Assembly: GCF_017316025.1 (NCBI RefSeq)
Contig: NZ_JAFLVT010000001.1
Coordinates: forward strand, 1-64,000
Length of the DNA: 64,000 nucleotides
Direction of reading: 5' to 3'
Origin: Candidatus Enterococcus myersii
GTDB lineage: Bacteria; Bacillota; Bacilli; Lactobacillales; Enterococcaceae
Position numbers and translations under genes: made by a program. Shown here in pieces: positions 3,610 through 64,000 of this stretch. Numbering within the stretch: the stretch's first letter is position 1; every line of letters begins with the position of its first letter. The notes under the pieces are model-generated. The model was not told the origin of the DNA, did no database searches, and saw only the letters and a list, made by a program, of their open reading frames with translations.

Positions 3610-5530
3610 TTGGATTAAATATCGGCATTTTAAAGGGATAGAAAATTTTGATCTTGATTTGATGGGGAATAATGCTACCGTAACCGGTCAAAATGGGTCT
3701 GGGAAAACCACGTTAGCTGATGGTCTTCTTTGGTTGCTGTTTGGCAAAGATAGCAAAGGTGCATCTATTAATCCTAAACCCTTGGACAACGTCAACAATG
3801 AGGTCTTGGGACTATCTCCTGAAGTTGAAGCCGAAATGATCATTGATGGAAAAGTGACCATTTTAAAACGCGTGCAACAAGAAACTTGGACGTCAAAACG
3901 TGGGGAATTAGAAAAAACACGTGGCGCTGACACCACTAAGTATTTTATCGATACAGTTCCTGTTAAGCAAAAAGAGTGGAAAGACTATCTAGCCGCTTTG
4001 GGTGACGAAAGCATTTTACAGATTTTAGCCGATTCGGGATTCTTCATGCGTCTTGACTGGAAAAAGCGCCGAGAAATACTTGTCAGTATGACTGATGTCA
4101 CAGACAACTCTATTATCGCTGGTGACGAGGATTTAAAAGAACTGCCAGAAATTTTAGGCAATCATTCTGTTGACGACATGCGAAAAGTGTTAGCTGGACA
4201 GAAAAAAGAAATTAAATTGGCCATTGATGGAGTTCCAGCACGTATTCAAGAAGTCACTGACATGAAAGCAAAATTGATTGCTGATTTGGGTGATTTAACT
4301 CAAGAAGAAATTAAAGCTGACATTATGGATCGTGAAGCTGATATTTCTGACTTGCAACTTAAGCTAGAAACTTTAAAAAGTACGGATAGCAATCAGGTGA
4401 AGCAATCAGAAATTGCAAAGTTAAAACTGGAATTAGAGCAAGCTCGTACCCAATATTTAACGGATTCTAATCTTCAAACGCAATCCTTGCAAAATGATGT
4501 TATGACGCAGCAGTCAGAAGTTAATCGTCTGCGCCGAGAAAAATCAGACACAGAATCAAAATTGCACGATTTAACCAATAAAATTCAATCTGGCAATGAT
4601 CAACTATCACAGATGAAGGCAGAACGAAATAAATTTAAGGACGTTGAGTTTGATGATCATAAAAAAATCTGTCCGACTTGTGGCCAAGATTTACCAGTTG
4701 ATCAGATTGAGAAATTGGTTGCGGACTTTAACCAACGAAAATCAAATTGGTTAGAAACTGACGCTGAAAAAGGGAAAGCTCTGAAAGCATCGATTAATGA
4801 GTTAGCAGCTGAAAAAGGAAAGCTTGAAGTAAATTTGGATTCAATCGATTTGGGCTATAAATCAGCCGAAGAATTACTTAATCGACTGAATGACGAGTTA
4901 AACAACGTTAAAGCTGAAATTAAAACTTTTGAAGAGACTGCAGTTTATCAATCAATCACTTCCAAAATTGAGATGATTGCAGCTGCAGATGATGATACCG
5001 ATATTTCTAGCAATCAGAAAGATGAAATCAAGCAAAGCATTGATAGTAAGCGTGCTGATATTGCTGATTTACAAGCCAAGTTATCTTCGTTTAGTCAATT
5101 ATCAACATTTGACATACGTATCGAAGAATTAAAAAACGAAGACAAACGTCTCAAGGATCAGAACCAGGATGTTGAAAGAAAATTGTGGCTTCTGGATGAA
5201 TTCACTCGTAAGAAAGTAGCTGCATTAGAAAGCTCCATTAACGAAAAATTTGAGTTGGTTCGCTGGAAATTGTTCAATATCCAAAAAAATGGTGCTTTAG
5301 CTGAAGTGTGTGAGGCAACTTATAACGGAATTGAATACGGAACTAGTCTAAACACGGGCGCTCGTATCAATTGTGATTTAGATATTGTCAACACACTTTC
5401 CAAAGAATTAGGTATCAAAATGCCGATATTTGTTGATAATACGGAATCTGTTAATCAACTGATTTCTATTGATACGCAAGTGGTCGAACTAAAAGTTGGT
5501 CGCAATAAAACATTGAAAGTTGAGGTATAG
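3590..5530 (+). CDS. SbcC/RecF-like AAA ATPase
   Basis: 646-aa SMC-like ATPase. Walker A GQNGSGKT lies at residues 33-40. Long coiled coils flank a CPTCG zinc-hook motif at residues 361-365, as in SbcC/Rad50. Near the C-terminus IFVDNTE is a plausible Walker B. Start chosen at GTG 3590, about 7 bases behind GGAGG; ATG 3596 is the alternative. It lies with a RecT-like annealing protein and an MBL-fold enzyme, a common recombination cassette in Listeria and enterococcal siphophages. It probably acts on DNA ends in recombination-dependent replication. No SbcD-type nuclease is adjacent, though the MBL protein might fill that role. Confidence 0.85.
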   Translation: MTMIKINWIKYRHFKGIENFDLDLMGNNATVTGQNGSGKTTLADGLLWLLFGKDSKGASINPKPLDNVNNEVLGLSPEVEAEMIIDGKVTILKRVQQETWTSKRGELEKTRGADTTKYFIDTVPVKQKEWKDYLAALGDESILQILADSGFFMRLDWKKRREILVSMTDVTDNSIIAGDEDLKELPEILGNHSVDDMRKVLAGQKKEIKLAIDGVPARIQEVTDMKAKLIADLGDLTQEEIKADIMDREADISDLQLKLETLKSTDSNQVKQSEIAKLKLELEQARTQYLTDSNLQTQSLQNDVMTQQSEVNRLRREKSDTESKLHDLTNKIQSGNDQLSQMKAERNKFKDVEFDDHKKICPTCGQDLPVDQIEKLVADFNQRKSNWLETDAEKGKALKASINELAAEKGKLEVNLDSIDLGYKSAEELLNRLNDELNNVKAEIKTFEETAVYQSITSKIEMIAAADDDTDISSNQKDEIKQSIDSKRADIADLQAKLSSFSQLSTFDIRIEELKNEDKRLKDQNQDVERKLWLLDEFTRKKVAALESSINEKFELVRWKLFNIQKNGALAEVCEATYNGIEYGTSLNTGARINCDLDIVNTLSKELGIKMPIFVDNTESVNQLISIDTQVVELKVGRNKTLKVEV

Positions 5531-60474: not shown

Positions 60475-62259
60475 ATGCCACAAGGTGGAGGCGGCCGTGA
60501 AGCTGCAATTTTTGAGGATGAATTACCAAAAGCTAAAGGAACATTTAAATTTAAAGATTTTTTGAAACTAATTAATAGTGTGAGCCCCAAAAAAGCACTT
60601 TTTGCTTTTGGTTTATTACTAAGCTTAATCACGAGTGGTGCGAGTCTTGTTGTGCCACAGTTAACAAAAGGATTAGTAGATACGAGTGAATTAGCAAAAA
60701 TCGATGGTAAAATGGTTGCCGTCTTGGTGCTGGCGTTTATCGTATATTTAGGTTTCGGTGCAATTGGCGGTTATTTTTTACGTTATGTCGGGGAAAGCTC
60801 TGTCAAAACATTACGAGAAAAATTATGGCACCATTTGTTACATTTGCCTGTCGCATATTATGACGACCATAAATCTGGTGAAAGTAGCTCTCGTTTGGTG
60901 AACGATACCAGTGTAATCAAGGACTTGGTAACGACCCAATTTCCTAATTTTATTACGGGGGCTATTCAATTAGTTGGCTCGGTGATTATCTTATTTATCA
61001 TGGATTGGAAAATGGCGGCGCTAATGTTTATATCTGTGCCCATTGTCATGTTAGTGATGATGCCAATTGGAAAAGTGATGATGAAAATTGGGCGCCAAAT
61101 GCAAGGTGCGCTAGCAGATTTTAATGCGGATACGACAGAGAAGATATCTGAGATTCGCTTAATTAAATCCAGTAATGGTGAAAGCTATGAAATTAAAAAT
61201 GGTGGTCGCTATATTGATAAAATCTTTAAACTGGGTTTAAAAGATGCCAAAGTTGAAGCTGTTTTGCAACCGGTAATGATGACGACGATGTTAGGTTTAT
61301 TTGTTGGTATTTTAGGTTATGGCGCAGTGCGGGTGCAAGCAGGGACACTAACGAGTGGTGAATTGGTCGCTTTCTTATTGTATCTCTTCAATATCATTAC
61401 ACCAGCAGCTAGCTTTGCTACCTTCTTTTCTCAAGTGCAAAAAGCAATGGGGGCAACAGAACGGATTCAAGCAATTTTAGAAACGCCAACGGAAACGATT
61501 ACAGTGGATACTAATATCGCTGTCACAGGTAAAACGATTGAAGCAAATCACTTATCTTTTAGTTACGATGAATCAAAAGTGATTTTACAAGATGTTTCTT
61601 TTGAAGCTAAACCTAATACGGTGGTGGCATTTGCCGGACCTAGTGGCGGAGGTAAGTCAACGATTTTTGGTCTGTTGGAACGTTTTTATGAACCAAAATC
61701 GGGCACCATTACCATTGGCGGACAAAACATTAATGATTTGTCTTTGAAAGATTGGCGTTCACAAATTGGCTATGTCTCACAAGATAGCGCGGTTTTTGCC
61801 GGTAGTATTCGAGACAATCTACAATATGGTTTAAATCAGTTATTAACAGATGAAAAAATGTGGGAAGGTTTGTCATTAGCGTATGCGGATCAGTTTGTTC
61901 GCGATTTTCCTGATCAATTGGACACGCAAATTGGCGAACGGGGCGTCAAATTATCCGGCGGACAAAAGCAACGAATTGCGATTGCCAGAGCCTTTTTACG
62001 CAATCCGAATATCTTGATGTTAGACGAAGCTACCGCAAGCTTAGATTCCCAATCAGAAGAAAAAGTACAGCGAGCATTAGATCAGTTAATGGCAGGAAGG
62101 ACAACATTAGTAATTGCGCACCGCCTATCAACGATTGTTGACGCAGATAAAATTTACTTTATCGAACATGGAGAAGTCACAGGTAGTGGGACACACCGTG
62201 AGTTAATTGCGACGCATCCTTTATATGCCAAATATGTAAATGAACAAGTCGTAGATTAA
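60475..62259 (+). CDS. ABC exporter (multidrug type)
   Basis: 594 aa half-transporter. A Gly-rich start and six membrane helices (about 40-330) are followed by the nucleotide-binding domain with Walker A GPSGGGKST (about 389), signature LSGGQKQR and Walker B ILMLDEATASLD. Resembles LmrA/BmrA-type homodimeric multidrug exporters. Position after the MarR gene suggests drug- or stress-induced efflux. RBS AAGAGG. Confidence 0.92.
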   Translation: MPQGGGGREAAIFEDELPKAKGTFKFKDFLKLINSVSPKKALFAFGLLLSLITSGASLVVPQLTKGLVDTSELAKIDGKMVAVLVLAFIVYLGFGAIGGYFLRYVGESSVKTLREKLWHHLLHLPVAYYDDHKSGESSSRLVNDTSVIKDLVTTQFPNFITGAIQLVGSVIILFIMDWKMAALMFISVPIVMLVMMPIGKVMMKIGRQMQGALADFNADTTEKISEIRLIKSSNGESYEIKNGGRYIDKIFKLGLKDAKVEAVLQPVMMTTMLGLFVGILGYGAVRVQAGTLTSGELVAFLLYLFNIITPAASFATFFSQVQKAMGATERIQAILETPTETITVDTNIAVTGKTIEANHLSFSYDESKVILQDVSFEAKPNTVVAFAGPSGGGKSTIFGLLERFYEPKSGTITIGGQNINDLSLKDWRSQIGYVSQDSAVFAGSIRDNLQYGLNQLLTDEKMWEGLSLAYADQFVRDFPDQLDTQIGERGVKLSGGQKQRIAIARAFLRNPNILMLDEATASLDSQSEEKVQRALDQLMAGRTTLVIAHRLSTIVDADKIYFIEHGEVTGSGTHRELIATHPLYAKYVNEQVVD

Positions 62260-62283
62260 AAAAGTCTAGCATAACCATTAGTG

Positions 62284-62340
62284 ATAAGATGAAATTTATG
62301 AAACGGTTTAAACCGTTACTTAAATTTCATCTTATTTATT
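62284..62340 (+). terminator. ABC exporter terminator
   Basis: ATAAGATGAAATTTA (from 62284) pairs with TAAATTTCATCTTAT (62321-62335), and AACGG/CCGTT extends the hairpin inside. TTTATT follows. Confidence 0.9.
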
Positions 62341-62430
62341 TAGCGGACAAAATTGAAATTTACGGCTAATTAAAAGCAAAAGTCTTTTTGTTTTACAATT
62401 TTTGAAAATGGCGATATTATTTTCACGTAA

Positions 62431-62474
62431 AGGGATGGTGTTCCCTATAAGTGCTGAAATGGCTGATGACACCT
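62431..62474 (+). promoter_or_regulatory. Fluoride riboswitch aptamer (crcB motif)
   Basis: AGGGA (62431-62435) pairs with TCCCT (62442-62446) around the loop TGGTGT. ATAA follows (62447-62450), then a short weak stem and TGATGACACCT (62464-62474). GGTGT (62437-62441) can form the pseudoknot with ACACC (62469-62473). This order, GATGG-loop, ATAA and TGATGNCNCCT, is the known fluoride aptamer. The downstream enolase is a known target class. Confidence 0.9.
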
Positions 62475-62530
62475 GTTGTAAGAGTTTATTTGAGATGTTT
62501 TCAAATACTTTTACAACAGGTGTTTTTTTG
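62469..62530 (+). terminator. Riboswitch expression platform (terminator)
   Basis: ACACCTGTTGTAA (62469-62481) pairs perfectly with TTACAACAGGTGT (62511-62523), followed by seven T. Its left arm contains the aptamer's pseudoknot strand, so fluoride binding should prevent terminator formation: an ON switch. Confidence 0.9.
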
Positions 62531-62573
62531 CATTTCAAATTTTGCCACCCAAAGAATCTAAGGAGGAATTATC

Positions 62574-63845
62574 ATGTCAGTAGTGATTGAAAATGTTAAA
62601 GCAAGAGAAGTTTTTGATTCAAGAGGTAACCCAACTGTCGAAGTCGATGTCATTTTATCTGATGCAACATTAGGACGTGCACAAGTGCCATCAGGAGCTT
62701 CAACTGGCGATCGTGAGGCTGTCGAATTGCGCGATGGCGGTGATCGTCTGCAAGGCAAAGGCGTTTTAAAAGCAGTGAACAATGTAAACACAGAAATCAA
62801 AGATGCACTAGTTGGGTTGAGTCCATTTGATCAAGAAAAAATTGATCACATCATGATTGATTTAGACGGTACAGCCAATAAAAGTCGGTTGGGTGCTAAC
62901 GCTATTTTAGGTGTTTCGATGGCGGTTAGTCGAGCCGCGGCCGCTAGCAAAAAGGAACCTTTGTATCGTTATTTAGGTGGTGTTGATTTAGAATTACCAC
63001 AACCATTTTTTAACGTAATTAATGGTGGTGTCCATGCAGATTCGGGCATTGATGTTCAAGAATTTTTGATCACGCCAGTTAAAAGAGCAAGTTTCCGTGA
63101 TGGAGTAGAAAAAATTGCCAATATCTACCACACACTAAAAGGAATTTTAGCTAAAAAAGGCCTTGAAACAGCGGTTGGGGATGAAGGCGGCTTTGCGCCA
63201 AAACTAGGTAGTACAGAAGCTGCTATCGAAACATTGTATGAAGCAATTAAAGCTGCTGGTTACATGCCAAAAGAAGAAATTGCGATTGCGTTAGATCCAG
63301 CTTCAAGCGAATTTTATAATGAGGATACCCATAAATATAATTTTGAAGGCAAAGAAATGTCCAGTGGCGAAATGTTAACCTACTACCAAGAATTAGTAGC
63401 GAAATACCCTGCTATTATTTCAATTGAAGATGGTTTTTCCGAACATGATTGGGACGGGTTTAAAAAACAAACGGATACGATGGGGGCTAACATTCAACTA
63501 GTTGGCGATGATATTTTTGTTACCAACCCTACTATTTTTAAAGAGGGCATTGATAAAGGCGTCGCCAATGCAATTTTAATCAAACTAAACCAAATTGGCA
63601 CAGTTTCTGAGTCCATTGCAGCTATTAAATTGGCGCGCCAAAATGGTTACAATACAATGATTTCCCATCGTTCAGGAGAAACTGGTGATACTTATATTGC
63701 TGACTTTGCTGTCGCAATGAATGCCGGACAAATTAAAACAGGTTCTATGGCCCGCAGTGAACGAGTGGAAAAATACAATCAATTTTTACGGATTGAAGAA
63801 GAATTGGAAGGCTACGCTAAACTAGCACATTTTCCTAAGAAATAG
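62574..63845 (+). CDS. eno: Enolase, second type, fluoride-controlled
   Basis: 423 aa, RBS AAGGAGG. Converts 2-phosphoglycerate to phosphoenolpyruvate. Complete active site: SGASTGDREAVELRDG, catalytic Glu in GDEGGFAP, metal ligands in ALDPASSEF, SIEDG and GDDIFVTN, Lys in ILIKLNQIG, and SHRSGET. The sequence differs clearly from the common Firmicute enolase and is shorter (423 vs about 432 aa). It stands alone, not in a gap-pgk-tpi cluster, behind a fluoride riboswitch. Fluoride inhibits enolase, so this copy probably restores glycolysis under fluoride. Confidence 0.95.
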   Translation: MSVVIENVKAREVFDSRGNPTVEVDVILSDATLGRAQVPSGASTGDREAVELRDGGDRLQGKGVLKAVNNVNTEIKDALVGLSPFDQEKIDHIMIDLDGTANKSRLGANAILGVSMAVSRAAAASKKEPLYRYLGGVDLELPQPFFNVINGGVHADSGIDVQEFLITPVKRASFRDGVEKIANIYHTLKGILAKKGLETAVGDEGGFAPKLGSTEAAIETLYEAIKAAGYMPKEEIAIALDPASSEFYNEDTHKYNFEGKEMSSGEMLTYYQELVAKYPAIISIEDGFSEHDWDGFKKQTDTMGANIQLVGDDIFVTNPTIFKEGIDKGVANAILIKLNQIGTVSESIAAIKLARQNGYNTMISHRSGETGDTYIADFAVAMNAGQIKTGSMARSERVEKYNQFLRIEEELEGYAKLAHFPKK

Positions 63846-64000
63846 AAGATAGTAAGAAGTTTAAAAAGGGCATTTCATCACTAGCTTCAAGAATAAACGG
63901 ATAAAAATTATTAAAAACCAATTTTAAGATTACTTTGTTTCCGGGCTTTTTCAGGCTGTAGTTGAATACTTTTGTTAAGAACGTCCCCTTATCAGCGGTT
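63846..64000. other. Downstream flank of enolase
   Basis: No gene or clear terminator is recognised in the last 155 bases. Confidence 0.4.

Follow-up and report, generated by a model that had tools for sequence, protein, structure and literature searches.

In the window, by which is meant the whole 64,000-nucleotide stretch of Candidatus Enterococcus myersii DNA that was analysed, an aptamer matching the fluoride riboswitch family lies directly upstream of an intact second enolase gene, and the arrangement is very probably a transcriptional ON switch that controls an accessory enolase and restores flux under fluoride. The gene belongs to a lineage of enolases that stands apart from the housekeeping enolases and is almost always fluoride-switched; the label EnoF was coined in this analysis for that riboswitch-linked clade. 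Among the glycolytic enzymes, enolase is the one classically inhibited by fluoride.

Leader and enolase gene in the window

The earlier note on this DNA, made from the letters alone, had claimed a fluoride riboswitch, and the Rfam covariance search that it called for returned RF01734 as the sole gathering-level family in the 64-kb window, with a margin over the cut-off of only 4 bits (Table 1). Under a model made from 20 aptamers, itself among the 20, the window aptamer scored 56.4 bits. The GGTGT/ACACC pseudoknot, the 13-bp perfect terminator sharing a pseudoknot strand, and the intact enolase gene 44 bases on were all where that note had placed them. The terminator arm opens with the pseudoknot strand, making the expression platform and the pseudoknot mutually exclusive, and the 44 nt between the T run and the start codon contain the Shine-Dalgarno sequence. 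The 55-nt terminator hairpin folded at -28.9 kcal/mol, and the leader (62425-62535) had a folding z of -6.9, with 0 of 200 shuffles as good; a generic terminator scan did not list the terminator, whose hairpin contains a bulge. A promoter-like site lies just 5' of the aptamer and is weak by itself, since 62200-64000 holds nine such sites versus 5.6 +/- 2.0 in shuffles; its position would fit a transcript beginning at the aptamer. In the part of the window that was read, no fluoride gene adjoined the aptamer or the enolase.

Table 1. Features of the enolase locus, in window coordinates
Feature	Position	Strand	Details
Promoter-like TTTACA-17-TATTAT	62392-62420	+	10/12 matches; just 5' of aptamer
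Fluoride riboswitch aptamer, RF01734	62422-62482	+	38.1 bits, gathering 34, E 5.5e-07 (Rfam covariance search)
Pseudoknot strand 1, GGTGT, P1 loop	62437-62441	+	pairs with ACACC
Pseudoknot strand 2, ACACC	62469-62473	+	first 5 nt of terminator 5' arm
Intrinsic terminator	62469-62529	+	arms 62469-62481 and 62511-62523, 13 bp perfect; T run 62523-62529
Shine-Dalgarno AAGGAGG	62560-62566	+	read from sequence
Second enolase (EnoF)	62574-63845	+	intact ORF, 423 aa; Pfam Enolase_N and Enolase_C

Conservation was assessed in an alignment of 20 aptamers, comprising that of the window and 19 from related loci. With the structure named above, 99% of the pseudoknot cells were paired, and two of the five pseudoknot pairs had changed on both sides, from G-C to A-U in four sequences and from U-A to C-G in six. 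Three of five covariation measures, namely the score itself (0.436), the number of paired cells, and the number of cells with both-sided changes, were higher than in any of 500 shuffles or any slid version. The other two were not above the shuffles: 208 of 500 shuffles reached the count of pairs with a both-sided change, and 473 of 500 reached that of further pair types. The window aptamer retains the conserved core bases as well as the compensated pseudoknot. Leaders were located by covariance-model coordinates after a strict regular-expression scan had recognized the core at just 12 of 44 loci. On these coordinates, a terminator-like hairpin that draws 3 nt or more of the pseudoknot strand into its 5' arm was seen in 36 of the 40 related leaders, a set that counts near-copies and three broken genes. 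In the other four (L075, L094, L107, and L108, the last three near-identical), the script found no terminator.

In the proposed mechanism, the two terminator arms would pair in the absence of fluoride and RNA polymerase would halt at the T run. In its presence the pseudoknot would hold the start of the 5' arm, the terminator could not close, and eno would be transcribed. EnoF would then restore the flux from 2-phosphoglycerate to phosphoenolpyruvate while the housekeeping enolase is inhibited, with CLC and CrcB exporters acting alongside. At the window locus, we infer fluoride binding, induction, and a benefit to the cell.

The host genome

The EnoF product is an enolase at equivalog level, with a score of 625.6 bits for TIGR01060, where 300 is the cut-off. 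Its description in the earlier note as a divergent, second-type enolase presupposed another enolase in the genome, and one is present (G000:C10, L004), 3' of pgk and tpi (named by eye). The two proteins are of the same family and have in common all 14 catalytic positions checked; they are 55% identical, and EnoF has a riboswitch, whereas none was found before the housekeeping gene in its pgk-tpi context.

The genome scan yielded two fluoride riboswitches. The second precedes a gene for a 426-aa CLC-family transporter with GNNLI and GREG motifs, which we take to be marks of CLC-F. In this second riboswitch (L001:1400-1640, minus strand, on G000:C7; 47.1 bits), the pseudoknot GATGT/ACTTC appeared by eye to contain a T-T mismatch. 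Two tandem crcB genes on another contig scored above the Pfam cut-off and below the NCBIfam equivalog cut-offs, and the genome scan found no riboswitch at them. The earlier note had proposed that the enolase is kept instead of, or besides, an exporter; given the CLC transporter and the two crcB genes, "besides" stands and "instead of" falls.

Linkage of the riboswitch to the EnoF lineage

All 105 genomes drawn from the family had an enolase, and 67 had a fluoride riboswitch (84 places). EnoF genes were present in 18 of the 105 and were 81 to 100% identical to that of the window, versus 55 to 59% for the other full-length enolases; one of the 18, in G017, is broken by a stop. A same-strand fluoride riboswitch was found at 18 of 18 EnoF genes versus 0 of 104 housekeeping enolases, as counted from two coordinate lists compared side by side, with riboswitch search filters that lose weak matches; the distance from aptamer to EnoF start codon was 70 to 201 nt. 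The EnoF-aptamer model likewise found no riboswitch in 26 housekeeping loci. Two related genomes, G043 and G044, retain both the leader and the gene.

Among named genomes, a scan yielded 18 EnoF loci, in Enterococcus, Vagococcus, Lapidilactobacillus, Lactococcus, Trichococcus, Alkalibacterium, and two MAGs, with a riboswitch at the gathering score in 16; L077 had a subthreshold match (32.0 bits). By their coordinates, two loci with the genus code of the window recur among these named ones, G037 as L070 (Enterococcus asini) and G041 as L065 (Enterococcus sp. CU9D). An order-level draw comprised 395 genomes, of which 23 had an enolase at least 66% identical to that of the window, and a riboswitch adjoined such enolases in 9 of 9 genomes from the family and in 13 of 14 others, the latter count taking in the subthreshold G248 (31.6 bits), G389 (own model only), and G188 (stop inside eno). 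G389 had been a candidate for a missing riboswitch, having no Rfam hit, and was dropped from that class on a score of 37.4 bits with the EnoF-aptamer model. Of 398 genomes drawn across the phylum, 21 reached E 1e-150 or better, and the sole match above 60% identity was that of the window itself.

Overall, 38 of the 41 EnoF rows outside the Lactobacillus branch described below share a transcription unit with a riboswitch, a count that takes in three (L077, L089, and L093) below the Rfam cut-off or missed by Rfam. The riboswitch lies within about 300 nt of eno except in the Listeria plasmid L106, where it is about 1.5 kb upstream. No riboswitch match was obtained at L081, L088, and L105. L088, which is also L188, is the lone miss of the order-level draw (G206; a 104,612-base contig), and its N-terminal end is cut beside IS3-type transposase ORFs (by eye), while L081 comes from a MAG and has its N-terminal residues in another frame (by eye); neither was retained as a plain exception to the linkage. 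In L105 (Streptococcus thermophilus pCI65st, 3733-3956), comparison with L104 suggests that DNA from the upstream hsp20 side has taken the place of the aptamer, part of the terminator remaining, which looks like a real loss.

Several EnoF genes are broken or split (L052, L090, L122, L188, and G377:C56) by an internal stop, a split frame, or an IS3-side cut, which suggests that the gene is dispensable in some hosts. The genome of Enterococcus viikkiensis (G020, L078) was considered as a case of EnoF being the only enolase in Enterococcus and was rejected; tpi is missing there as well as the housekeeping enolase, so the absence of the operon is probably an assembly gap. In Enterococcus sp. CU9D (L065:530-4263), a riboswitch precedes a CLC-like ORF (by eye) a little upstream of eno and a second riboswitch precedes eno, with one ORF between the CLC-like ORF and eno. 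At L068:4941-5937, a second fluoride riboswitch lies 3' of eno, before a universal stress protein-like ORF.

In a tree of 83 rows, EnoF and the Lactobacillus branch formed one clade (support, 100/100), and all 27 other (housekeeping) rows, at which no riboswitch was found, lay beyond a branch with 100/98 support. The EnoF clade kept 100/100 after addition of the 20 nearest Firmicutes enolases of the phylum-level draw, none of which (0 of 20) had a riboswitch at the gathering score, and it had 100/100 in three trees, all unrooted. Housekeeping enolases grouped as 20 rows in one tree (100/99) and as 37 rows in another (94/91). These trees are without archaeal, eukaryotic, and cyanobacterial enolases, and the cross-phylum grouping given below is unrooted.

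A branch with the EnoF enzyme and no riboswitch

Twelve enolases of the genus g25 nest within the riboswitch-linked clade, beside the riboswitch-linked g25 copies L114 and L119, and the EnoF-aptamer model found a riboswitch at none of the 12. The genus is probably Lactobacillus; the housekeeping enolase of one member, G167, is nearly identical by eye to PDB 4mks, which we take to be from Lactobacillus gasseri. One branch of the clade, probably Lactobacillus, has lost the riboswitch. A housekeeping-type enolase was present in 9 of the 14 g25 genomes drawn and absent from five (G139, G208, G332, G350, and G215). In G139 and G350 (single contigs) and in G332, the only enolase found is the riboswitch-less, EnoF-derived gene; pgk-tpi is followed by other ORFs in these three and by eno in G404 and G201. 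In G208 tpi is at a contig end, and G215 (120 contigs) also has a riboswitch-linked EnoF copy. The sole-enolase loci are L097, L099, and L115 (tpi loci L182, L183, and L185); L097 and L098 have the unusual residues SYFY and VLDDFICTN. With a sole enolase of this origin in at least three probable Lactobacillus genomes, the EnoF lineage can presumably carry glycolytic flux, and the branch would be an instance in which a core step of metabolism has passed to a stress isozyme.

Plasmids and fluoride-linked enolases of other phyla

Enolase matches were found in 1,123 plasmid records, of which 32 fell in the 60 to 90% identity bands; the 30 listed among these came from Lactococcus petauri, S. thermophilus, Listeria, and lactobacilli and pediococci mostly from breweries or beer. 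Two brewery plasmids that were read have divergent crcB genes beside eno. The Listeria plasmid (L106, 2471-5338) has one fluoride riboswitch before DUF190-crcB-crcB-eno and, between eno and a cation:proton antiporter gene, a sodium riboswitch, RF03071 (40.9 bits versus a cut-off of 40.5). The riboswitch-linked lineage spans lactic acid bacteria and Listeria and is partly plasmid-borne.

Seventeen further plasmid stretches around non-EnoF enolases were read, two of which represent housekeeping contexts in Firmicutes or Bacteroidota. A fluoride riboswitch was present in nine of the 17, from Methylocella, Sinorhizobium, Agrobacterium, Pseudomonas, Enterobacter, Escherichia coli, Rhodococcus, Massilia, and Spirosoma; directly behind it are the divergent crcB pair in Rhodococcus and, in Massilia, the CLC gene that follows. 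L146 and L147 had no riboswitch at the gathering cut-off, L147 adjoining crcB, and the L148 stretch had neither a riboswitch nor a fluoride gene. These 12 rows grouped together, on the EnoF side of the housekeeping enolases (92/90 and 100/99), as did 10 of the 12 in a second tree (97/88 and 94/91). The non-Firmicutes rows were picked from plasmid matches, most through searches with two of those rows as the query, and given this biased sampling, the long branches, and the unrooted tree, a common origin with EnoF is only possible.

Enzyme residues and alternative explanations

Fourteen catalytic and metal-ligand positions, which we chose by what we take to be the diagnostic sequence motifs, were identical in 41 of 41 EnoF rows, 12 of 12 Lactobacillus rows, 11 of 11 other fluoride-linked rows, and 57 of 57 housekeeping rows. 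Clade-specific changes were sought at positions with one residue in at least 88% of the 57 housekeeping rows (E. coli numbering) and comprised, in EnoF, L13F (38 of 41), R184E (40 of 41), G186I (I or V in 41 of 41), E188N (36 of 41), E376G (G or V in 41 of 41), T379F, and S398A. For subunit contacts, the residue numbers of Staphylococcus aureus enolase were placed on the alignment by what we assume to be the corresponding motifs. According to PMC4667285, the dimer contacts of that enzyme involve beta1-3, alpha5, and alpha12, including a hydrogen bond with Gly17 and Thr185 as partners, whereas Asn140, Lys142, and Glu358 are among the residues in contact between dimers. Position 140 is D or E in 40 of 41 EnoF rows and N in 43 of 49 Firmicutes housekeeping rows; position 142 is E in 40 of 41 versus K, H, or R in 46 of 49; and position 358 is K or R in 34 of 41 versus E in 45 of 49. 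Some of the contact changes might stop EnoF from mixing with the housekeeping enolase. Against such altered assembly, contact positions 135 to 138 are nearly always kept, F139 and D355 vary in both groups, and the gap beside position 142 can be placed otherwise.

Four alternatives bear on what the switch achieves. The first is gene dosage only, EnoF being as fluoride sensitive as the housekeeping enzyme and the switch just making more enolase; the unchanged state of all 14 positions in 41 of 41 EnoF rows fits this account, to which we give slightly less than an even chance, yet extra housekeeping copies would suffice for it and a separate clade has been used repeatedly. A fluoride-tolerant isozyme, a possibility raised in the earlier note, would be one in which second-shell or assembly changes keep EnoF working where fluoride stops the housekeeping enzyme. 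The dedicated lineage and the clade-specific changes at conserved positions speak for it, and 7 of the 11 other fluoride-linked enolases likewise lack E376. None of the 14 active-site positions checked has changed, however, and phenylalanine at position 379 is, we believe, probably the eukaryotic state as well and hence not specific, so that tolerance is a possible but doubtful reading. That the window EnoF escapes fluoride regulation, its leader combining a decayed aptamer and a plain terminator, is improbable: a modest score (38.1 versus 34 bits) and the decay precedent in pCI65st speak for it, but neither the core bases nor the compensated pseudoknot has been lost, and leader and gene are both kept in G043 and G044. 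It is most improbable that EnoF does a different job (another substrate or moonlighting) with fluoride merely as the signal; the two enolases, at 55% identity, differ enough to allow such a change, but against it stand intact active-site positions, an equivalog-level enolase score, and an EnoF descendant as the only enolase found in three probable Lactobacillus genomes.

The preferred reading, a fluoride-induced accessory enolase, can be extended into a joint account that is unlikely to hold in every part. EnoF would be a dedicated, mobile fluoride-stress isozyme and not an extra copy; its contact changes (E358 to K/R with K142 to E, R184E, and E188N) would bar co-assembly with the fluoride-inhibited housekeeping enzyme, and it would be less fluoride sensitive. 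In part of Lactobacillus it would have shed the riboswitch and taken the place of the housekeeping enolase in glycolysis. An old origin may also be common to it and the enolases of other plasmid-borne fluoride islands, in Pseudomonadota, Bacteroidota, and Actinomycetota. Two natural isozymes from one cell make the question of more enzyme or better enzyme directly testable.

Comparison with known systems

Riboswitch-controlled enolases are already in print, in PMC5533749 and PMC11139923; the latter, a review, states that enolase is often found in fluoride riboswitch operons. In the open-licence literature, no account was found of the separate clade, the near-constant riboswitch, or the Lactobacillus replacement, and nothing on point was found for a second, paralogous, or fluoride-tolerant enolase in connection with fluoride.

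The window element has the aptamer consensus, pseudoknot, and terminator platform of RF01734 (the crcB RNA motif), and no structural difference was seen; in placing it differs from the usual members in preceding eno and not crcB or a CLC gene. The closest described operon is ppaC-uspA-eno-gpmA-crcB of Enterobacter cloacae FRM, in which, according to PMC5533749, an extra enolase is under a fluoride riboswitch, as in the window, and eno is induced 176-fold by fluoride. The plasmid relatives L150 and L151 have ppaC-usp-eno-crcB behind a riboswitch, an order resembling that of the FRM operon, whereas the window EnoF is without such neighbors and belongs to a clade different from that of L150 and L151; the tree was built from rows other than the FRM eno itself. 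Lastly, EnoF is of the same enzyme family as the octameric Gram-positive enolase of S. aureus, as described in PMC4667285, and differs from it in being altered at the dimer-dimer positions 140, 142, and 358.
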